From Solicoccozyma terricola (lineage: Eukaryota; Basidiomycota; Tremellomycetes; Filobasidiales; Piskurozymaceae): DNA of 64,000 nucleotides. The stretch is from positions 177,133-241,132 of the forward strand of contig BCLD01000023.1 in the NCBI GenBank assembly GCA_001600875.1, in the 5' to 3' direction. This document shows, one piece after another, positions 5,735 through 55,822 of this stretch (positions within the stretch are counted from its first letter, which is position 1; each line of letters begins with the position of its first letter). Below the pieces are notes generated by a model. The model saw only the letters and a list, made by a program, of their open reading frames with translations, did no database searches and was not told the DNA's origin. The position numbers and the translations under genes are program-made.

Positions 5735-5839
5735 GACGTGTCATCGGATGACCCCCCCCCCCCCGGCCCGNCAGTGATCCATCTCTCGTCTGGAAACGGG
5801 TAGGTCAACACCATCACAAGCATCCATGCAGCCACAACC

Positions 5840-8800
5840 ATGTCCGAGTCCTATGATCACTCTGAAGATGGTCAACCAGATACACAGCCTGTCGCGTCAG
5901 GTAGTCGAGGTCCAACACCCAAGACTCCACACCGGGTATACCGTAAGTTAACTTGCTTGCTACAACTCCAAACCCAATCCACTCACCGATCTCCTCCAAC
6001 CATCTTAAGGAGCATGCAACCCATGTCGAAGGGTCAAGATGAAGTGCGACTTGGGAGAGAGCAATGAAGCACCTTGTAGGAGATGTCAAACTAATGGACA
6101 TGACTGCGTGTTGGAGAAGGGCCCGGCGAGTATCCGAGTCAGACCAGAGCGGGCTGAGAATCAGTGAGTCGTTCGTTAATGAATGAATGAGAATGAGAAT
6201 GACAAAAAACCAAAGCTTACCTTTCTGTACCCTTTTTTTTTGCGAGTAGACGCATAGGTAAACTCGAATCCCAGATGACGGATATGCAACGTACATTGTC
6301 AGAGTTGACATCGTTCCTCAAATCACAAAGCAATACTACAAGGCAACCTAGCTCGGTCGATCATTCACCATCAAGCAACGAAGGGTCTCGGGGAATTCAT
6401 CGTATGCCTCCGAACGAATCTCATCATCTCGCTGAATCGAGTATGTTAGGCTCAGTCCCAAATACCTCAGACTCTCACCAAAGACCGACATCGCTCCACC
6501 GAACGGATCGACCTCCACACGGGCCTCAGCCTAACGACACATCATCCGCTACCCGCTCCCATCGACGACGGGGCGAATCACCAATCGACATCCAAGCCAT
6601 CGAAGCAATGGATACCCTCCTTCAAGCCTCCGCTGTCAACATCGACGGCGTCTCCTCTTCCCCGTTCAACATGGCTCTTCACGGTGGACTAGGACCCGCC
6701 GTGGTACTCGAAACTAGTACATCACCACTTTCACCTCATGCATTACCATTTGAGGAGACTGAGGAGGAGGAGAACCCGGAATCCGCGGGGTATATGATCA
6801 TGGCTCCGTTGAGGATGATTAAGAGGCTCGATAGAGTGGTTACTCCGAGTGCGAGTCGAGCGGTTAATCGCGGGGAGGGGTCGAGCACCACCACTACCAC
6901 CACCACCACCACGAGGCCACCGGTGGAAGCTCGAGTCGAAGCTCGGATGTTCAAGAGGCGTAGAACATCACACGATGACGACTTGTCATACCAGGCACGC
7001 TCGGAAACACCTTCTCAAACCTCACGAACTGGCGGAGAATTCTGGCGAACTTACCCAGATCTAGTTGCACTCGGTTTCATCTCCAAACTCCAAGCCCAAC
7101 TCTTCTTCAACCAATACTTCACCACAAGTCACATTTTTATCCCAGTATACGATAAATTATTCGATACCTGGGAATCTCTACGTGTCCGATCACCATTCTC
7201 GATATCCACGATCCTCTCCGTGGCTGCGAGAGCGAATGACGGGGGAGGGCCGATGAGTGAACATCAAAGGCATTGTTTGGAGCATGCGAGGAAGGTTTCA
7301 CTGGGTACGATATACCATCCAATCAACCGAGTCGAGGCGGTGCAGGCAATGTTGTTACTCGCGGCGTTCAATGATGACGGATGGTTGATAGGTGGACATG
7401 CTTGTAGAATGGCAATGGATATGGGTTTGGATCAAGCTTTCAGGAAACTCCTAAAGACAGGAATGGGAAGGAACAAAGTCGGTAAAGAATTGGAAGCAGA
7501 TAGACTCCTCGTCATTGGCGCACGAACTTATTTCGCGCTATACCTCTTTGAACATCAAATGTCTTACGGAAACGGTAGGCAAACTATCCTTCGAGAAGAC
7601 GATACCATCCATCGTTGTCGATCGTTCCTCGATCATCCTCTTACAAACATCTGCGACATCTCCCTCATCTCCTCGGTCGAACTCATGGCCCTACGTTCCC
7701 CTCTACACACCGCTCTCACTTCCTCCGCCGGGGATCCAATCGACTACCGAATGATCAAAGACATCCAAGCCGCCACCAATACCTTCGAAGATTGGAATAC
7801 AGAATGGTCTCAACTCTTCCCTCCCGGTGAGGAAGGTGATTTCTATCGCGAATCACTCATCTTACAAAGATCATACTCCTGCCTATTCATAAACTCCCAA
7901 GTCCTTCGGAACGTTCCCGGACCAGCTGGGGTCAAACGAATGAGTCCGGATGAAAAAGGTTTGGCATTGAGGGCTGTGGGGAATGCACAGATGTGTTTGA
8001 GTTTCTTTTTGGGAGGTGGGTGAGGTTGGTGGTTTAGGGGATGAGCGGGGGGTCGAGGGAGGCTGACATTGGCTGGTTTTGTAGGCGCGAGTGGTAGACC
8101 TGGGAGCTATGCGAGCAAGTTGAGATATGGTTAGTACCACGGCTTCGGGAAAGACAATTTGGTCAGTGGCTCACAACTACCCCTCGTCTAGCCGATCAAC
8201 ATACTCGTCAGTCGTTCACACACTACGAACTTTAATACCCGAACTCAACATCCTCTCCAACCACAGACGTATGCCTCGCTTTCGCCGCCAATTTCCTCAT
8301 CAGAATCGCTAGAATGTTCCCACTCGAACTAGATATACAAAGGACAGGAAAGGACGTAGCAGCGATTGCTGATATCTTGTCAGAGAGTACGTGTGTTCCC
8401 GATTCTCCGACATACAGTGAGCTGACGTGACGATACCTCGCAGTTCCTGCTGGTCGATACGCAAGATCTTTGAGGCTCCTACTGCAAAGAGCTGGATTAC
8501 TACCCCGATCCGGCACACAGACACCTTTATTATCTGCTCCAATAGGAGAACCGACCCAACAACCAATCAACCACAGCGACTTGATCGATTCCCTGGGAGG
8601 TGTGGATGACTCGGGGTTTAGGATGCCTCGCGTCAATCCGCTGGCAGGTGGTTCGACGGGACCCTTGTACCAGCCTAACAGCTATATGCCGGATGCTCAA
8701 GTCATTGACCGGGAAGCTCAGCTGCCTCTGTGGGTTCTAGGACAACTTCCCAAAGGACGTAGCTAATGTATGGTTTTCATCAGTTTCATGAACTCGCTCG

Positions 8801-9049
8801 GCCAAATCCAGTCGACTCTGCCAAATTTCGGAATGGAAAGCTACTTTATGCCGGTCGGTGAGTGGGCTCATGGACACCCCAAGCACGCACAAACACTAAC
8901 AACTCACCACTGCAGACCTCGACATGAGACTAGCGAGCCGTCAAGCCAGTTATCAACCAGAATACATGCCTCAATTCGATAATCGCGGGGTTGATTACTC
9001 GGGAAGAACGAATATGGGAATGCTGCCAGATAATTGGTGGGCGATGTGA
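5840..9049 (+). CDS. Zn2Cys6 transcription factor, pathway regulator candidate
   Basis: Spliced model: 5840-5942, 6010-6163, 6250-8015, 8085-8129, 8192-8206, 8267-8386, 8444-8729, 8784-8857, 8916-9049 (898 codons, all junctions in frame). Near residues 36-66 is a fungal binuclear zinc cluster: ACNPCRRVKMKC, then CRRC, then a final Cys. A short linker and coiled coil follow (KLESQMTDMQRTLSEL). The middle region (FFNQYFTTSHIFIPVYDKLF to THVCLAFAANFLIRIARMFP) looks like the regulatory domain of Gal4-type activators. The 15-base microexon at 8192-8206 restores the A-D-Q-H-T-H stretch. Homologues bind CGG triplets as nuclear dimers. It lies next to, and reads in the same direction as, the reductase gene, with permease and GH88 genes beyond. 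Control of that set is an inference. An Asp/Asn-rich tail ends in NWWAM. Confidence 0.92.
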
Positions 9050-9990
9050 CGAGGAGGAAGTTGTACTAGCGTACATACTTAAGCGGTACCTAGTAAGCGA
9101 GCGCCTCTGGACGTCTGCCAGCGCCTCACGATGTACAAACTGCTATGCATCGTTTGGAAGGTTGGAGCATTTTGGGAATGAGAAGGATTTTGTCTCGAGG
9201 ATTGGCGAGTAAGTTGGAGCTGTTCCATTGCGAGGCAACCTCATGAGATTACCTCGACGTTAAAGGCGTCCTCGCGTTCACCTCCAAAAAGGAATGCAAA
9301 CAAATAGCAGCTGAAAGCACCGTTCCCGGGATCGAAGTCAGACGAGTGTCCCTGAGGCCGGGGCGAGTGGTCATTTGCTATCCCCCGAGTGGTCATTTGC
9401 TTTTGAGCCATTAGTGAGTCGCATGTCCCTCGATTGCGATGAGCCGAAGCTGACACGCGGAACAGTCTGAAAGCATGTGAATCGTTCGGAATAGCAAGTT
9501 GGTTGGGTACCTGGGTGGGAAAATGCAGGAACGGGGTCTGTGTGGAGACATGTTCCGGGTCCCGGTTGTAATGTCAAACCTCATGATAATTCGCCCACAT
9601 TACCGGAAGGGCGCTCCGGTGGGTGGCGGATCGCAATGGACGATGAATCGCGGCCGGTTTCACAACCCATACTTGGAATGCTGCAGTACCGGAGCGAGCA
9701 GTAGTCAAGATGCGAATGCGAAGGGCGACAACGGCTGGACCGGCCCACCAAAGCGAGCGATTCGTAACCGGTTCGGTACGGTCTTTTTCCGAGGGTCAAC
9801 AACGAGTCTTTTGGGGACCGGCCCTTACTCTGTTCCGATCGTGTCCTGAGGTTCCCGGACTGGTGTCAACCAATGGAACGGTCCAGGAGCTGTCACTTGC
9901 CGGGCCGTAGTCCGTTTGCACCAGATCAACATGATGCCCTGAAGATCAGGGGTTCTCCAGCTCGTCGCAGTTCAACATATCGACAACACA
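9050..9990 (+). promoter_or_regulatory. Upstream region of the reductase gene with repeated motifs
   Basis: No gene could be read here. The motif GTCATTTGC occurs twice, at 9370-9378 and 9392-9400, each preceded by CGAGTG; GGCCGGTTTC lies at 9652-9661. CCGG cores are frequent from 9600 to 9850. The same two longer motifs recur in the divergent permease/GH88 promoter (14256 and 14158), so they are candidate sites for a shared regulator. Confidence 0.45.
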
Positions 9991-11276
9991 ATGTCTCCCA
10001 AAATCCCCACCCTCCTTTTGGGCTGTGCCAATATAGGCCCAGACGTCCCAAGCACCCTCTACACCTACAACACCAAAGCAAAAGTCGATGTCATTCTGGA
10101 TTCCTGGTACGCGCTGGGCGGACGAAGACTCGATACCGCACGATATTATGGACTGTCGGATGAGCACGGATTGGGCGGATCGGAGAGAGGGTTGCGCGAG
10201 GTTGGGGATTCGTTGAAGAGGTTTGAAGTCGATACCAAGGTGTGTTGGGTGTGCCGGCAGATTAACCCTTAACTGATCTCTCTTGCTCCTCAGATATATG
10301 GCTTTGCCGGTGGCTCTCACGCAGACGGCAAAATCAGAGAGTCGCTCGAGCACTCCTTGGCCGATTTGGGAGTTGCTTCGGTAAGTCCATGACATGAGGC
10401 TAAGGTTGCCCCGTTCTGACTTCCATTCATCAGGTCAACACTCTTTACCTTCATTGGCCTGACCGCGAGACTCCTTTTCTCAGCGTTCTGAGGGACCTGG
10501 ATGAGCTGCACAAGGAGGGCAAATGCGAGACTATAGGAATCTCAAACTTCTCAGCGGACGAGGTTGATCAAATGTGTAACGTGAGTGCCCCTGTCACAGA
10601 ATGAACGAAACAAGATCACAAACGTCGCCGTACCAGCTTGCCACCGAGCATAATCTCATCTCGCCAACGGTATATCAAGGCCAATACTCCGCTCTCTGCC
10701 GGGGCGGAGACACACAACTGTTCCCGACCCTTCGTAAACATGGAATCGCATTCCGTGCGTATTCTCCTCTAGCCATGGGAATGTTGTCTGGAGGTGAACA
10801 AAAGGAGTCACTGGAGGCTGCACGGACTTTACCACCAGGTAGTCGGTGGGTGATCATTGCCCGTTGGGCTCATATTCTTTCACTGACCGTTGCGCTCGCA
10901 GCTTTCATCCCGATTCCCGGAAATCATCGGTCTTCCAAGGGGAATGGTTCAAGCCCAAAATCTTTGATGCCATCAAGTCACTGAATCGCATATCTGCAGA
11001 GACAGGAATATCACCCACGGAATTGAGCTTGAGATGGATTGCCAATGTACGTCAGCGAAGTGAAACCCTGGCACAACCACCACTAACACAATCCTCACAC
11101 AGCACTCTGCGCTCAAGGCGGAACTCGGCGATGGAATTATTCTCGGAGCTTCATCGACGAAACAGCTGGAGGAGACAGTGGCTGCACTTGAAGCCGGCCC
11201 CCTGTCTGACGATGCGGCTTCTGCCATGAGTAATCTTTGGGAGATATGTAAAGATGTAGCGCCGCGATATTGTTGA
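9991..11276 (+). CDS. Aldo-keto reductase (AKR7/aflatoxin-aldehyde-reductase-like)
   Basis: Exons 9991-10239, 10294-10380, 10434-10580, 10637-10845, 10902-11046 and 11103-11276 splice in frame. The protein has an (alpha/beta)8 NADPH-dependent oxidoreductase pattern: LLLGCANIG near the start, then the catalytic tetrad Asp48 (RRLDTARYYG), Tyr53, Lys83 (VDTK) and His119 (LYLHWPD). Further family marks are GISNF, the exon with YQGQYSALCRGG, the PPGSRF loop and a C-terminal GASSTKQLEETV for cofactor binding. Length is typical for AKR7-type enzymes. The enzyme probably reduces an aldehyde or keto group of a sugar-derived metabolite in the cytosol. Next to a GH88 gene, a 5-keto-4-deoxyuronate product is an attractive but unproven substrate. 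It is convergent with the permease gene. Confidence 0.93.
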
Positions 11277-11810
11277 TGAATTATCCACGTCCGGAAGGTA
11301 ACGCTTGGTCATGATGTTGACAGTATTAGGAGTCTCAGCGTGAACCAGCGCAGTCATCGTTGTGGCATAAATCAATGCATGCAAACAATGGGTATTGCGG
11401 CAACCTCAACCGAAGACGAACCTGGTGCACTACTTGGAGGCAGTGACAAAGTGCAAGTGGTGTGCAACAGACCTTCACCCGTAATTCATAACATTCGTGA
11501 CCAAATCGCCAAGCTCCTTGTGCTACCGCGATTGATGGAGCCCTGCTCTTTATCGCACTCATTGAAAGCCTGCAGTGATATTCGATTACAGCGCTGTGGC
11601 TTGTGACGCTAGTGTCGCTATCAGGGAAGATTTGAGAGCTCGAAGCTGGGGATGTCTTGAAAGTGCATTCCATTAAAATCAAAACTGATACAGATCAACT
11701 GATATAGATCCTCCCAGCCCAATAAGCTCCTCAATCTGGCACGACCAACTCAGATACAGTCTGCGTGGGTCAATAAGTCAGAATGTGTTCCTGGACAACA
11801 GGTAAGTCCT
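11277..11810. other. Intergenic region between convergent genes
   Basis: About 530 bases between the reductase stop and the permease stop. Only short open stretches without family resemblance are present, and no repeat or RNA gene was recognised. Confidence 0.6.
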
Positions 11811-13906
11811 TCACTCACATCTGAAATCAGGGTTCTCCCTGTCAGTCAAGTCAGCAAACGCATGAGAGTGCTTGTTCACAGCCGCTTCGCCATCGACAAC
11901 CATTTGACCAGCTTCCTTGGCGATATTGCGTCTGATGAGATATTGACGGGTAACAAGGCACATTATGATGAAGGACCCGTAGAGCGCGCAGTGAATGTAA
12001 AGGGTGTTCAAGTATCGATGTGCCCATTGAGCTTGGAAGAGTTCTGTGGTGGATTGTAATTAGCTTTCGGAAATGTTGGCTCTGCTCGATTACTCACGAG
12101 GAGCAACGACATTTCCTCCAGCCCAGGCAACGAAGATGATGGCGTAGGCAAACGTCTTCTTGGTTTGACCGGCGACATTTCCTGGAGAGGTGGAATGTCA
12201 GCAGAAGTCCAAAAAGGATTGCCCTGAAGACTCACGGGATAGTAACGTGAACAACATTGGATTCGAGGCTTGAAAGAACTGCATGATGTAGAAGCTAAAG
12301 ATGATGATTGTCAGCGATGTAACCGATATTCAAGGTCATCACAACCCGACTCACGCAACAACCAATCCACCCTTAGTCGAAGGACTGCTCTGCACGACAA
12401 TCAACACGATCGTCCCGATGATATTTGGAAAGGTGAAGGCCATGAGAACCAAGAACGTCTGTTGCGTCTTGGTCACGAGCCATGCTGATAGGAAGTACTG
12501 TGGGGCAAGGAAAGGATCAGTCAAGGTCAAATGGACAGAGTAGGTTGTGCCTCACTGTCAGAACTGTCATGACACCGAGTGGGATCCCGAGTAATTGAGA
12601 TTGTAGCGTGGTGAAGCCGAAGTTGGTTTTTATCAATATGCCAGAGAAAGTGCCGAGACCACCAACGACCTGTAAAGAAGATCATCAGTATCAGGTCATT
12701 TGGGGTCGAAGGCGTCGTATGACATACAAGAGCACTGAAAAGATCGGCACATTAGTCAGAGAACGGCATCTTTGTATGAAACGCTTGACTCACTACATGA
12801 TCATCAACGAGAACAACATCCAAACGAAAGGATCGGTAAGCGCCTCAATGGCTTGATTCCTCTTGAAGGTCTTGTTCTTGATACCTTGATCGTTACCTCT
12901 AACCCTTTCAACGAAGAGGATTTTGTCGGCATCACTGTAGCACTTGGCTTTCGGTGGCGAGTCTGGCATGAATATACCAACCAAGACACCAGAGACCATG
13001 GAGAGAACCGCGACGCAGATAAACATATATTGCCATCCTTTTAGAGCGGATCCGGTGACGAAGTAGAATCCGTAGCCAAGGAGTGAAGAGAGGATTCCGG
13101 ACATTCCCAGCATACTCTGGTAGCAGGCCAAGATGAAAGGTTGTTCGCTCTTCTTATACCTACCAACGTGGGTTTTTTCAGTGGCCGCACCGCACAAGGA
13201 ATGACAGAATACTCACCACATGACGGAAACGCTCAACAGAATGGGTCCGACGACTGACTCAGCAAGCCCTAAGGCGAATCGGAGTCCCCAGATTGCCTTG
13301 TAGTCGTTCATAAAAGCGGTAATGATGAGGATCTGATGTAAGTTATAGTCAGCATCGATCTACTTTTCCGGGAAACTGCCAATTACTCACAATACCCCAC
13401 AAAATCAAAGCACCGGAAAGCAATTTGGCAACAGGTAACATCTGGACGATTCGGTTGGCTGGAAGTTCGCCGACAATGACACCACACCACAAGAAGGTGG
13501 AAGTCAGAGCATAGTCTTGTCCCACCATGTTGGTGTCGGCCAGAAGCCCCATAATACTGGCGGTACCAGTGGTCGACTTGTCCATGGCTTGCATTAGATA
13601 AGCCAAGGTCATCAAAGGCAGGATTCTGTGGGGGCAGCGTGTCAGATTAAGTGCCATCTCGTATAGCAACCCAAGGACCAACCTCATGTTAATCATCCTT
13701 CTCAAACGCTTGTTGGTCGCGTCATCGATAACGACCGAGGCATCCGTAAAGCCAGCGGCATCGGTGTCCTCCATCTCCTCTGAGAGAGTCTCCCTGTTGG
13801 GGTTGTATTCATTGTGCCCTGTTGCGGCTTTGTCGTCGTCGCCATAGCTGGTTGTCGATTCCATCTTATTGAGATTAAGCGCTGCGTCGTTGGTAGTCGG
13901 AGACAT
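11811..13906 (-). CDS. Dal5-type MFS permease (anion:cation symporter family)
   Basis: Minus-strand exons 13906-13683, 13625-13391, 13332-13217, 13159-12794, 12734-12728, 12669-12556, 12497-12355, 12294-12236, 12181-12098 and 12043-11811 give 526 codons. All phases fit only if the 7-base exon at 12734-12728 (encoding part of YAL) is used. The hydrophilic N-terminus (~70 residues) precedes about 12 membrane segments. Family marks are AYLMQAMDKST in TM1, RFALGLAES, WYKKSEQ, GNVAGQTKKTF plus AGGNVVAPQLF in the second half, and a C-terminal DLTDRENPDFR. Fungal members carry allantoate, nicotinate, vitamins and organic anions; bacterial relatives include hexuronate carriers. It is divergently paired with GH88, so uptake of an unsaturated uronide is plausible. 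Substrate is inferred from context only. Confidence 0.92.
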
Positions 13907-14501
13907 GTTGAGCTGTTGAGTGTGGTGAATGGCAAAGGGAACGATGATTCAAGAACGGCTTCAACATACTCTTCTTATAGGGATCGCGGCAGACTCAAAA
14001 AGCATGAAGGTCGGGCCTCCGATCCCTCACAAAGCTTACATGGAGTAGTTCCATGGGGCCCACCGGGGCCGTTAAAACCATCCCGAACCCCCAAGTTACG
14101 AAGATCAATCTCAGTCGGTACGTGGTGGTTCCGGCCGAGTGGCTGTTTATGCAGCTGGGCCGGTTTCGCTCCGGTGAATTTAAATGCAGCCACTCCAGAC
14201 TACTCCCGAGTGTTGTATACTGAAACTAAGCAAGCTGGGCGGATGAAAGGGCAAAGTCATTTGCAAACAAGCCCATGGAACAAGCGGCCCGAGTGTAGGA
14301 GCTATCATGAGGAGGAGCGCGGCTCGATGAATCCCTACAGCATCGGTCCGGGCTGATCATCAAGTTGAGGAGTTTGTTGCCAAGCTGGACCCCGGAAATG
14401 CTCGAATGTGAAAGTCGTGGAGTCAAGAGCTGTTTTAATGCCAACGACACTTAGACTCGCTTAGACTCCAGTAGGATAATACACCACTTCACCACTCAAA
14501 A
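13907..14501. promoter_or_regulatory. Shared divergent promoter of permease and GH88 genes
   Basis: 595 bases lie between two divergent start codons. They contain GGCCGGTTTC (14158-14167) and GTCATTTGC (14256-14264), both also found upstream of the reductase gene, several CCGAGTG strings (14133, 14206, 14286) and CGG/CCG triplets such as GGTTCCGGCCGAG near 14128. This arrangement suits joint control by a Zn2Cys6 factor. Confidence 0.5.
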
Positions 14502-16341
14502 ATGATTTCACCTTCACCCAGCCGCTCCTCGAGTATCATGTCAGCTATCCTCTCAGAATCTACACTTGCAAAGTTCTATGATGTCGCATCCCCTATCCTT
14601 GACTCCGTAAGTCAGCAGTTCCATGTCCAAATCTGTAGCTGATCCTTCATTTCCAGGGGGAGAATGCAATGATCTATCCGGAGCACACTCATCCGGCATC
14701 ACCCATTGAACCGCTTCCTACTTCGCCACCGGGCTTACAGATCGGCACCTACATAAAGACCGAACGCAACTTCTGGACAAGTGGATACTTCCCTGGAAGT
14801 CTTTGGCTTCTTGTAGAAGCGAGCAGATTAGGAAATGGTAGAGCACCTGTTTCCGAAGAAGAATGGACACTTCTAGCAAGGCGCTGGGAGCGAGGTTTGG
14901 AAGAGCAATGCTCAAGGACCGACACTCGTGAGTACCTCGCAAAGTGTGGGCAGATCGTGAGCTGAGTATTGATATCATAAGATGACATTGGTATCCTCAT
15001 ATCCCCAACCTACGGCGCCGACTGCCGCTTAACATCTTCAAAAATTGCATCCAAGCACGTCATCAAAGCTGCCGAGAGTCTCGGGTCCAGGTTCAACGAG
15101 AAAGTCGGTTGCTTGAGAAGTTGGGATATGGTGAAGACTTGCGTGTATAGCTATGGCCCCGCGGAATTGGAGACAGACTTTCGTGAGTAAGATTGTCATC
15201 AACCATATTTCCCTATTACTGATTGTTTCAACTATAGTCGTAATCATCGACAACATGATAAGTAAGTAATCCGTTTTCTCGTCCCAGCAGTTCTTGAAAC
15301 TCATCCTGCATCCCTGAACAGACCTTGACCTGCTGTTCCAGGCAGCCCATTTGAGCCCCGACCTTTCATATCTGAGGGATATCGCGATCAGACATGCCAG
15401 AACAACAGCGCGCAATGTAAGTCTATCTCTCGCGGAGTAATGTTAGTCTTACTTATATGACACTCTCAGCACTTCCGAGCCGACTCGTCCACCTACCACG
15501 TGTTGTCTTATTCACCAACGACTGGCGAAGTCCAGAAACGATTCGCGCATCAAGGTTATAGCGACGACTCTTGTTGGTCTAGGGGTCAAGTCAGTTCACT
15601 TGACGATTATTTCAATGCCCGTGATAGCTGATCATTTGCGCAGGCTTGGGCAATCCACGGGTTCTCGAATACCGCTGCTTGGATGGAACGAGAGGGCATG
15701 CTCGAAGAACGGGACGAGTTCATACATGTAGCCCAACGAGCTGGGAATTACTTTCTGTCACAACTAGATCAGGGTAATGGCGAGGTTCCGCCATGGTGAG
15801 CTCCATATTAGGCTGGATAAAATCATCTATCCTGACAGATTGCCTTCAACAGGGACTTTGATGCGCCGAAACCCACATTCACTGACTCTTCAGCTGCTAC
15901 TTGCGCAGCGTCTGGTTTGATCGTAAGCAAAGTCTCGTCGCGTTATCAATCACAACGACCCCTAACCCCTGATGGCGGATCATTCAGACACTTCATCAAC
16001 TCATCGGTAAACAGTCACCGTACCTCGAAGCGGCGATGACACTCTTAGAAGCTACCCTTCGCGAATGTTCAGCCCCGGGGGAGGCGGAGTTCATCGTTGA
16101 TTACAAGGGCAACAAGGCAGTCAAACTTGGAGAAGGAGGTTGGCAAACAGTATTGACCGGAGCAGTCATTTCATACTACCAATATGCGAGAAGACAGTGG
16201 GCCGACCATGGTTTGTGAGTCAATCCGCATGAAGAAGATGGCGAGACGGGTCATTGATATTGAGTTTGATTCAGGGTCTACGGGGACTTCTATCTGCTGG
16301 AATGCGCCGTCAAGCTTCGGCAGCTGGATGTCGAGCTCTGA
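14502..16341 (+). CDS. GH88 unsaturated glucuronyl hydrolase
   Basis: Exons 14502-14606, 14657-14927, 14982-15182, 15238-15261, 15322-15416, 15470-15589, 15644-15795, 15853-15922, 15988-16214 and 16275-16341 give 443 codons, close to the family's usual length. There is no obvious signal peptide, so a cytosolic enzyme is likely. Both catalytic Asp regions of the family are visible: IIDNMINLDLLF, and the GYSDDSCWSRGQAWAIHGF block that follows DSSTYHVLSY. The (alpha/alpha)6 barrel continues through DSSAATCAASGL and ends with a YGDFYLLECAVKL motif. GH88 enzymes hydrate the 4,5 double bond left by polysaccharide lyases on terminal unsaturated uronic acids, which releases the sugar as a 5-keto-4-deoxyuronate. 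The divergent permease and nearby reductase and regulator fit uptake and use of such oligosaccharides. Exon 4 is only 24 bases. Confidence 0.95.
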
Positions 16342-18292: not shown

Positions 18293-19588
18293 ATGCCTTA
18301 CAGTGGTCCCAGAAACCCCGACCCAGGCCCAGGTGAATCCTTCATCACAATCTACGGATATGTGCCTTCCCTGGCATTCGGGATCATCGCGATGATTTGT
18401 TTCCTCACCGCCTTAGCGGTCCACACTTTCTGGCTCGTGAGGAGCAAACGCACGAGGTGGTTCCAGGGACTGATGATCGTCGGTTGTGTGAGAGCAGATA
18501 TGTTGTTGCTGGGAACCTGGGTACACGGCTAATTGACCCATCCATCGATCCTTATGGCCAGACAATGGAAAGCGTCGGGTACATCTTTCGAATCCTATCT
18601 CACTACCATCCGTTCAAGGTTGTCTATTTCGTCATTCAGTATTTTATGATCGTCTGCGTGAGTGATTGGTTAGGATGTCTTGCCGCCTTTTGTTGCTTTA
18701 GCTGACTCGTGCTTCATCCATCCAACACAGGCGCCAATCGCATTCTCTGCTGCTTTCTATCTTGCTGTACAATACGGTCTGGCCGCGCGCACTCGAGAAT
18801 CGCAGGTGTTGCCTTTCCGACCGAGAGTCTTGGTCATCAGTAAGGGGGTTTTTCGAGTGGCTTTCAGCCCCTTCACGTTTATCTGCTGATGTATCCCCCC
18901 CCCCCCCCCCNCGGTATCCTCTCCAGCTTTCATTACTATCGACGTCATCACTACTATCATACAAGTCGCAGGAGCTGCTTTGATCGGCGTGTCCGAGTCT
19001 GCACAGGGTAGGGGTGAATCCTCCGCTGTTACCCCGGCACAAGCGAACGATATCCTTCTGGCGGGTTTGGCATTCCAGGTGCGTGAATCCGTAGTGCGTA
19101 GGACGGTTTGACGATCGATGCTGACTGACTGCGAAACATGGTCTGGTTCACAGTGTGCTAGCTTTCTCGTTTACCTTGGTATACTCACCTTCATCATCGT
19201 CCGAAGCAACACCTTGCGCAAGTCCGGGACCAAAGTCACCTCTTCTCCCTCACAAAGCAGCAATAAATCCTTCTGGATCCTGCTCTATATATCTTCTGGA
19301 CTCGTGTTCACCAGGACCCTATTCAGATTAGCGGAAACAGCTGAAGGTGAGTTGCAGGCTCAATCGTGAAAGCGCGCGCTCGGGGAAAGGCATGATCACT
19401 GAGTATCTTGGAATATCACCGACTCCCTCTACACCCCAGGTCTTTTCAGCTTCGCAAGCACTAACGAGAGCTTGTTCGGCGTGTTTGAATTCGCACCTGT
19501 CATCATCGCAGTGGGGTTATGGGCCGTTTGGCCAATCGAGCTCGAGATGAAGAAGATGAATGAGTTGGGCGAGGAGGAGAAGGTGTAG
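18293..19588 (+). CDS. RTA1-family seven-helix membrane protein
   Basis: Exons 18293-18487, 18562-18657, 18731-18839, 18927-19078, 19154-19346 and 19440-19588 give 297 codons in frame. Seven hydrophobic segments follow a short N-terminus (GYVPSLAFGIIAMICFLTAL is the first). The pattern fits RTA1/RSB1 fungal proteins: helix 3 with VVYFVIQYFMIV, helix 4 with APIAFSAAFYLAVQYG, FITIDVITTIIQVAGAAL in helix 5, then a positively charged loop, FWILLYISSGLVFTRTLFRL and a last helix ending IAVGLWAVWP. Members sit in the plasma membrane and are linked to resistance to toxic amphiphiles or export of sphingoid bases. The exact substrate is unknown here. Intron 3 contains a poly-C run with an N, so its length is unreliable. 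Confidence 0.9.
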
Positions 19589-33005: not shown

Positions 33006-33633
33006 TTACAAATCAAGAATCAGAGTCTGTTCCATGTCTGGGGTCGCCTCAAAGGATATCCGACCCGCAGGTAGAAAAACGAGAGCCACCAAAGCTCCAC
33101 CACGGACTTGAGGATAGTGATGGGTACCCGGTCCAGGGCATGTCCACCCATCGCCCTGCCACCCGTGCATGCCCATCAGCTCTGCTGTCGGATCAAGCCG
33201 CACGATGCAGTTGATCTCCCCGTAGGGATGAGCGTGGTACTGCCCACAGTACTCCTCCATGCTGTTCATATACACGGCGGTGATGCTGAAATAGTGCGTC
33301 TCCGAACTGGGCAAAGCGATCTTGCCTCTTCGGTATTTGTGGCCATCGAGCTCAGTCTCTGCCACCCAGCCTTCCTCCAGTCCCTGTCGTATGTACTTGC
33401 AGAAGTCCTCATAGTACGGATTACCCGGGCCGTACTCCGTATTTAATTTCTTCTCCAGTTCCTTTCCCGGGGTCCTGGAAAAAGATGTCAAACCACAGAG
33501 ACAGATACCTCGAGGAAATATGAGCTCACAAATTTTTGATCTCATCGAAGAACTCGAGGCATTTTGCAAGGCATTTTTGCGCACTGGGGTACTTGGACAC
33601 GTCTAGTACAGAGGCTGGGTCATGTCCGGCCAT
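33006..33633 (-). CDS. DUF4863 protein, 4-hydroxylaminobenzoate lyase-like
   Basis: Exons 33633-33530 and 33474-33006 give 190 codons; the first ATG (MAGHDPASVLDV) is used. After a helical N-terminus come YYEDFCKYIRQGLEEGW, the cupin-like core with KYRRGKIALP, VYMNSMEEYCGQYHAHPYGE (two His likely to bind a metal), GMHGWQGDGWTCPGPGTHHY and ALVALVFLPAGRISFE. This order matches bacterial DUF4863 proteins such as PnbB, which converts 4-hydroxylaminobenzoate to protocatechuate in nitrobenzoate degradation. Whether the fungal protein has that activity is unknown. A second protein of aromatic-hydroxylamine chemistry, a HabA-like membrane protein, is encoded 11 kb away. Confidence 0.85.
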
Positions 33634-55722: not shown

Positions 55723-55822
55723 NNNNNNNNNNNNNNNNNNNNNNNNNNNNNNNNNNNNNNNNNNNNNNNNNNNNNNNNNNNNNNNNNNNNNNNNNNNNNN
55801 NNNNNNNNNNNNNNNNNNNNNN
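55723..55822. other. Scaffold gap of exactly 100 N
   Basis: A run of 100 N of conventional length, not a measured gap. Confidence 0.98.

Follow-up and report, generated by a model that had tools for sequence, protein, structure and literature searches.

A likely GH88/permease pair in a plausible four-gene cluster for unsaturated uronides of Solicoccozyma terricola

In a stretch of 64,000 nucleotides from the basidiomycete Solicoccozyma terricola (assembly GCA_001600875.1, contig BCLD01000023.1, positions 177,133 to 241,132; here called the window), genes for a Zn2Cys6 regulator, an aldo-keto reductase (AKR), a permease and a GH88 hydrolase stand in a row, which raises the question whether they form a small cluster for the catabolism of unsaturated uronides released by lyases. 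We consider the chances of this to be evenly balanced. Altogether, the genes are real, GH88 and permease likely form a pair, a cluster of all four genes is plausible and the pathway is putative. A first-pass annotation had placed four complete multi-exon genes here, and spliced models confirmed them (Table 1): no internal stop interrupts any of the four models, and their 30 introns, of 50 to 137 bases, all run from GT to AG. The divergent promoter that it had claimed for permease and GH88 was found as well, the two genes (starts at 13906 and 14502) being transcribed away from each other across 595 bases, and its four gene identities were borne out by family matches and conserved active-site residues.

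In the proposed pathway, a PL8 lyase would act outside the cell on an acidic polysaccharide that most likely resembles glucuronan or polymannuronan. Its products would be dimers and monomers bearing a 4,5-unsaturated uronyl end. The permease would import the acidic dimers and perhaps the monomers too. Inside the cell, GH88 would act on the unsaturated ring and free the second sugar, the released uronate would open to 4-deoxy-5-hexosulose uronate (DEH), and the AKR would convert DEH to 2-keto-3-deoxygluconate, which an aldolase could split. The Zn2Cys6 protein would turn the genes on via CCG/CGG sites.

The GH88 protein matched eight distinct sequences of the PDB, the best being 3wiw, 'Glycosyl hydrolase family 88' (2.3e-42, residues 71-386); 2zzr was matched at 2.9e-31 over residues 67-436, and three of the eight are entered as uncharacterized gbs1889. 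The catalytic domain is thus related in sequence to unsaturated glucuronyl hydrolases of solved structure, which identifies the protein as a GH88 member. Among 7996 scored database candidates there were 2200 matches with E-values to 4.7e-98; the best relative, from Mycena vulgaris, is 44% identical, and in the best 120 of the 2200 all entries with species names are fungal. D127 is kept in 120 and D197 in all of the 121 aligned sequences; recalling the bacterial enzymes, we take these to be the two catalytic aspartates. The protein had no Pfam match at 0.01, and the genome scan with PF07470 was also silent at its gene. Because the nine best database relatives likewise lack PF07470, the miss is taken as a limit of the model and not of the gene; the CAZy family GH88 is not defined by PF07470. 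By its sequence, the enzyme is predicted to be active on unsaturated uronides. No signal peptide was seen on inspection by eye, no predictor being applied.

The whole genome was scanned too (23.9 Mb in 33 contigs, numbered C1 and so on, the window lying on C23); gene models outside the window are rough ones from a codon-usage gene finder with a fusion penalty, with one fusion on C23 split by eye. Searched with the GH88 protein, the genome gave, besides the window gene, a weaker match to a second GH88-like gene at C1:1256347-1257905, about 27% identical to the first over a rough model. The 45 permease matches listed in the genome all lie on contigs other than C1.

The permease is of the major facilitator superfamily (MFS), with 105.5 bits to PF07690 MFS_1. 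Its best NCBIfam model was TIGR00893, D-galactonate transporter (160 bits, below the cut-off of 395), and several of the 120 relatives listed are named allantoate permease or 2-ketogluconate transporter, so that the earlier label 'Dal5-type' was right in kind. The best named relatives listed are from Mycena (55-58%), the nearest by tree is from Phenoliferia psychrophenolica (Microbotryomycetes; support 97/94), and no solved structure was matched by sequence at 0.001. Relatives in the same genome lie on C15 and C2 (50 and 53% identical), and a third, 39% identical, shares the contig of the window (C23:102724-105036). There it comes last in a row (C23:98415-105036), after a galactonate dehydratase (409 bits against a cut-off of 311) and a protein of the DHDPS family (75.6 bits against 22.1), neighbours that fit sugar-acid transport. 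A second divergent pair with the layout of permease and GH88 was found at C5:632584-637186; its permease is 25% identical to that of the window, and its partner is a PF07470 gene which we take to be GH105-like.

Linkage in other fungi was assessed from the best 120 relatives each of GH88, permease and AKR, homologues of one species on a contig of identical size being counted as linked, which gives the same contig and not a distance. Among the 11 species common to the GH88 and permease lists, counted by hand, three from two phyla carry both homologues on one contig: Mycena latifolia (1,516,117 bases, each homologue second in its list), Elsinoe ampelina (1,005,423 bases) and Penicillium rolfsii (808,999 bases). 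Exactly these three pairs match among the listed 120 x 120, and all six entries are single-member and single-contig. No GH88-AKR pair shared a contig among the listed homologues, and because three GH88-permease contigs stand against zero GH88-AKR contigs, GH88 and permease are supported as a recurring association and as the best supported core, and linkage of the AKR is not supported. Of the four-gene neighbourhood expected in relatives, the lists show GH88 and permease together in 3 of the 11 species, and GH88 and AKR in none. Absence from these lists means little, because they hold only the best 120. One permease-AKR pair with a contig size of 9,948 bases joins a named Pseudogymnoascus entry to an entry without a species name and was taken for chance.

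The AKR matched PF00248 Aldo_ket_red with 179.4 bits, and its best PDB match was 2clp, aflatoxin B1 aldehyde reductase member 3 (2.7e-49), the next kind being IolS at 3.2e-18. It carries D48, Y53, K83 and H119, presumably the catalytic tetrad Asp-Tyr-Lys-His, and falls into AKR7 with AKR7A nearest; the nearest named relative listed is from Pseudohyphozyma bogoriensis (Microbotryomycetes, 59%). The KduI isomerase was not detected in the genome (six of 14 controls gave a match, five of them above the cut-off), so some other enzyme must handle DEH, and a reductive route via the AKR would be sensible. Because the eukaryotic DEH reductases described so far are AKRs (PMC8778563), reduction of DEH to 2-keto-3-deoxygluconate is assigned, by analogy, to the window AKR as its putative step. 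A KduD-like short-chain dehydrogenase is encoded at C8:297789-298985 (kduD score 269.2, below the NCBIfam cut-off of 338.85). It was considered as a partner of a PF07470 gene and rejected, as frames that by eye are ribosomal-protein-like and retrotransposon-like intervene.

For the regulator, a Pfam scan covering the first 673 of its 893 residues gave PF00172 Zn_clus at 29.6 bits (cut-off 21), which identifies a Zn2Cys6 protein, and its adjacency suggests membership in the cluster. The CCGG count of the region between regulator and AKR was reached by 12 of 3962 sliding windows in about 208 kb, the AKR upstream region included; with 11 CCGG, the 600 bases upstream of the AKR ranked first of 48 predicted upstream regions. 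The count between permease and GH88 was reached by 66 of 4039 sliding windows. CCGG density was tried as a regulon mark on other upstream regions and discarded for its poor separation. Of the four copies of the word ACCGGAGCG in 208 kb, three lie upstream of the AKR or between permease and GH88. These two regions have 92 seven-base words in common; random pairs had a mean of 65.9, with 24 of 1500 reaching 92, and when one region was fixed and the other random, 92 was reached in 2 and 3 of 1500. For eight-base words the count was 36, reached by 26, 7 and 6 of 1500. The common words are only suggestive of a candidate regulatory link and, because they were chosen after looking, they are a lead and not proof of a regulon.

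As to the substrate, the genome gave one PL8 match (9.1e-51; gene at C9:447923-445244), and the model of 755 residues, its N-terminus signal-like by eye, matched 7r2x, 'Mannuronic acid specific lyase', over residues 21-753 with 6.6e-188 and 629.3 bits, compared with 2e-20 and 75.6 bits for chondroitinase AC. We take 7r2x to be the published PsMan8A. The PL8 of this genome could make the unsaturated substrate. To judge by its nearness to a mannuronate lyase, and as a guess, the polymer is more likely to be glucuronan- or polymannuronan-like than pectin or a glycosaminoglycan. A cluster for pectin breakdown, in which GH88 would act on unsaturated galacturonyl products, could draw on GH28, matched at five sites spread over four contigs, and on the PF07470 matches on C5 and C8; however, GH28 products are saturated and PL1 was found nowhere in the genome, two controls giving a match, which makes this explanation improbable. 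PL20 had no genome match either (one control gave a match, below its cut-off), and the models for PL3, PL4-type and PL7 matched neither genome nor controls, so that for these absence is not shown. A role of the cluster in the use of glycosaminoglycans, e.g. hyaluronan or chondroitin, is very improbable. The relatives of GH88 in the PDB carry the name unsaturated glucuronyl hydrolase and in one case unsaturated chondroitin disaccharide hydrolase, and PL8 includes chondroitin and hyaluronan lyases, but the PL8 of this genome scored far higher with the mannuronate lyase than with chondroitinase AC, and PsMan8A was inactive on chondroitin and hyaluronan under the conditions used (PMC7911691). Glucuronan occurs in fungi, e.g. 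in Agaricus bisporus (PMC10512326), and for the basidiomycete Bjerkandera adusta one GH88 and one PL8 are tabled, the PL8 rising late in the attack on cyanobacteria (PMC7424253).

It is quite possible, if doubtful, that GH88 and permease alone are a functional pair and that AKR and regulator are chance neighbours, the AKR being a general aldehyde detoxifier. Outside linkage was found for GH88 and permease only, the AKRs of solved structure closest to that of the window go by the name aflatoxin B1 aldehyde reductase, which are enzymes of broad use, C4 encodes an AKR paralogue of 54% identity, and the region upstream of the regulator itself has little CCGG (1 in 900 bases). Yet the AKR upstream region is the richest in CCGG among those ranked and has words in common with the permease/GH88 promoter, and with KduI undetected another enzyme is needed for DEH. 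Besides the regulator's upstream region and the missing AKR linkage, the following observations weigh against the uronide cluster. The three nearest AKR relatives listed are from species of Microbotryomycetes absent from the listed GH88 matches. In 8 of the 11 species GH88 and permease homologues lie on different contigs (Phialocephala subalpina, Aaosphaeria arxii, Coniochaeta sp. 2T2.1, Bisporella sp. PMI_857, Xylogone sp. PMI_703, Aspergillus puulaauensis, Penicillium malachiteum and P. herquei; the entries of these two Penicillium species may stem from different strains). The linked permeases of the three positive species occupy three places in the tree and not one clade, and linkage by contig, on contigs of 0.8 to 1.5 Mb, leaves the gene distance undefined. 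Six CCGG also occur upstream of PL8 (counted twice, with genes on both sides), of the C2 permease and of a gene that is seryl-tRNA synthetase-like by eye; ten-base words in common numbered 4 against a mean of 4.7, an ordinary count that was reached by 182, 133 and 76 of 1500. The PL8 gene lies outside the cluster. Finally, among 80 of 543 confirmed prokaryotic GH88 loci (most titled Bacteroidota; frames of at least 150 codons; profiles based on 54 of the 120 permease relatives and on 59 of the 120 for the AKR), a carrier of the window type was, unlike in this cluster, weakly matched in 2. The uronide cluster of the first-pass annotation is thus partly supported: it keeps its gene identities, the divergent promoter and the co-location of GH88 and permease, the genome has a PL8 besides, and it falls short at the linkage of the AKR.

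Small catabolic clusters are already known as a kind in fungi, and for the uronide cluster a putative pathway of GH88, permease, AKR and regulator is plausible. A wider proposal, tentative and unlikely to hold in full, would see in GH88 and the anion:cation symporter (ACS)-type permease a two-phylum module that shares one divergent promoter and imports and opens unsaturated uronide dimers; here it would be joined by an AKR in place of KduI/KduD and by its own regulator, giving an undescribed pathway by which polymers of other microbes, similar to glucuronan or polymannuronan, would be used. In the literature covered (carriers, glucuronan and basidiomycete yeasts; titles and the starts of abstracts, with few subscription papers) we found no description of a fungal GH88 cluster and nothing on an uptake partner of GH88 in fungi or on DEH handling by GH88 fungi. 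The pairing of GH88 with the permease points to a carrier that could be examined, and the lack of a KduI match leads to a clean prediction, namely a reductive route by an AKR. If true, the pathway would connect the known fungal lyases to uptake and metabolism.

Table 1. Genes and candidate regulatory regions of the locus, in positions of the window.
Feature	Positions	Strand	Exons	Basis or content
Zn2Cys6 regulator	5840..9049	+	8: 5840-5942, 6010-6163, 6250-8015, 8085-8129, 8267-8386, 8444-8729, 8784-8857, 8916-9049	893 aa; spliced model and PF00172
AKR upstream region, CCGG-rich candidate regulatory stretch	9050..9990			13 CCGG in 941 bases
AKR7-like aldo-keto reductase	9991..11276	+	6: 9991-10239, 10294-10380, 10434-10580, 10637-10845, 10902-11046, 11103-11276	336 aa; PF00248 and PDB 2clp
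MFS permease, anion:cation symporter / Dal5 / D-galactonate carrier type	11811..13906	-	10: 13683-13906, 13391-13625, 13217-13332, 12794-13159, 12728-12734, 12556-12669, 12355-12497, 12236-12294, 12098-12181, 11811-12043	526 aa
Divergent intergenic region of permease and GH88	13907..14501			595 bases, 6 CCGG
GH88, predicted unsaturated uronyl hydrolase	14502..16341	+	10: 14502-14606, 14657-14927, 14982-15182, 15238-15261, 15322-15416, 15470-15589, 15644-15795, 15853-15922, 15988-16214, 16275-16341	443 aa; PDB 3wiw match and conserved residues

On the rough models, the next gene 3' of GH88 encodes an RTA1-like membrane protein (18473-19588, plus strand, 139.7 bits), and a run of 13 C with a single N lies directly 5' of the regulator start (5752-5771). 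The window contains 106 N in total, 100 of them at 55723-55822. At 33009-33602 on the minus strand there is a strong match to PnbB, 4-hydroxylaminobenzoate lyase (PF16155, 222.5 bits), which is unexpected in such a fungus.

Like this genome, bacterial GH88/PL8 loci combine GH88 with a lyase, a PL8 relative being present in 5 of the 80 loci compared; unlike this cluster, none of the 80 has an AKR7-like gene. The idea that the fungal layout was copied from bacterial GH88 loci was rejected, as no matching layout occurred in these 80 of the 543. One locus (L071, from an uncultured Bacteroidales) carries at 5808-9035 a single open frame of 1076 residues with PL8 at residues 169-552 and GH88 at 746-1026, which by its sequence is a natural lyase-hydrolase fusion. 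In nature, GH88 and PL8 do occur together.

Among fungi, the lyases of Trichoderma parareesei (Pilgaard 2022) are likewise reported to break down an acidic polymer, in that case glucuronan, into dimers and monomers (PMC10512326), whereas the present genome gave no match to PL20 or PL7, each within the limits of its controls as given above. PsMan8A of Paradendryphiella salina is a polymannuronate-specific fungal PL8 of the kind that the genome PL8 resembles; it is exo-acting, yields dimers and monosaccharides, and otherwise shares its clade with uncharacterised enzymes of terrestrial fungi. It differs in being an extracellular enzyme of a marine ascomycete; in that article GH88 is not mentioned and the dimer carrier of P. 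salina is called unknown (PMC7911691). The carrier DHT1 of Asteromyces cruciatus resembles the proposed permease function in being a fungal carrier for a lyase-made uronide, DEH, and differs from it by description as a homologue of GAT-1 and quinate permeases and not of the Dal5/ACS type (PMC5482797, PMC3933009). Finally, abalone HdRed and the DEH reductase of a brown alga are, like the enzyme proposed here, AKRs that reduce DEH (PMC8778563); the window AKR, nearest to AKR7A, is likened to them by description.

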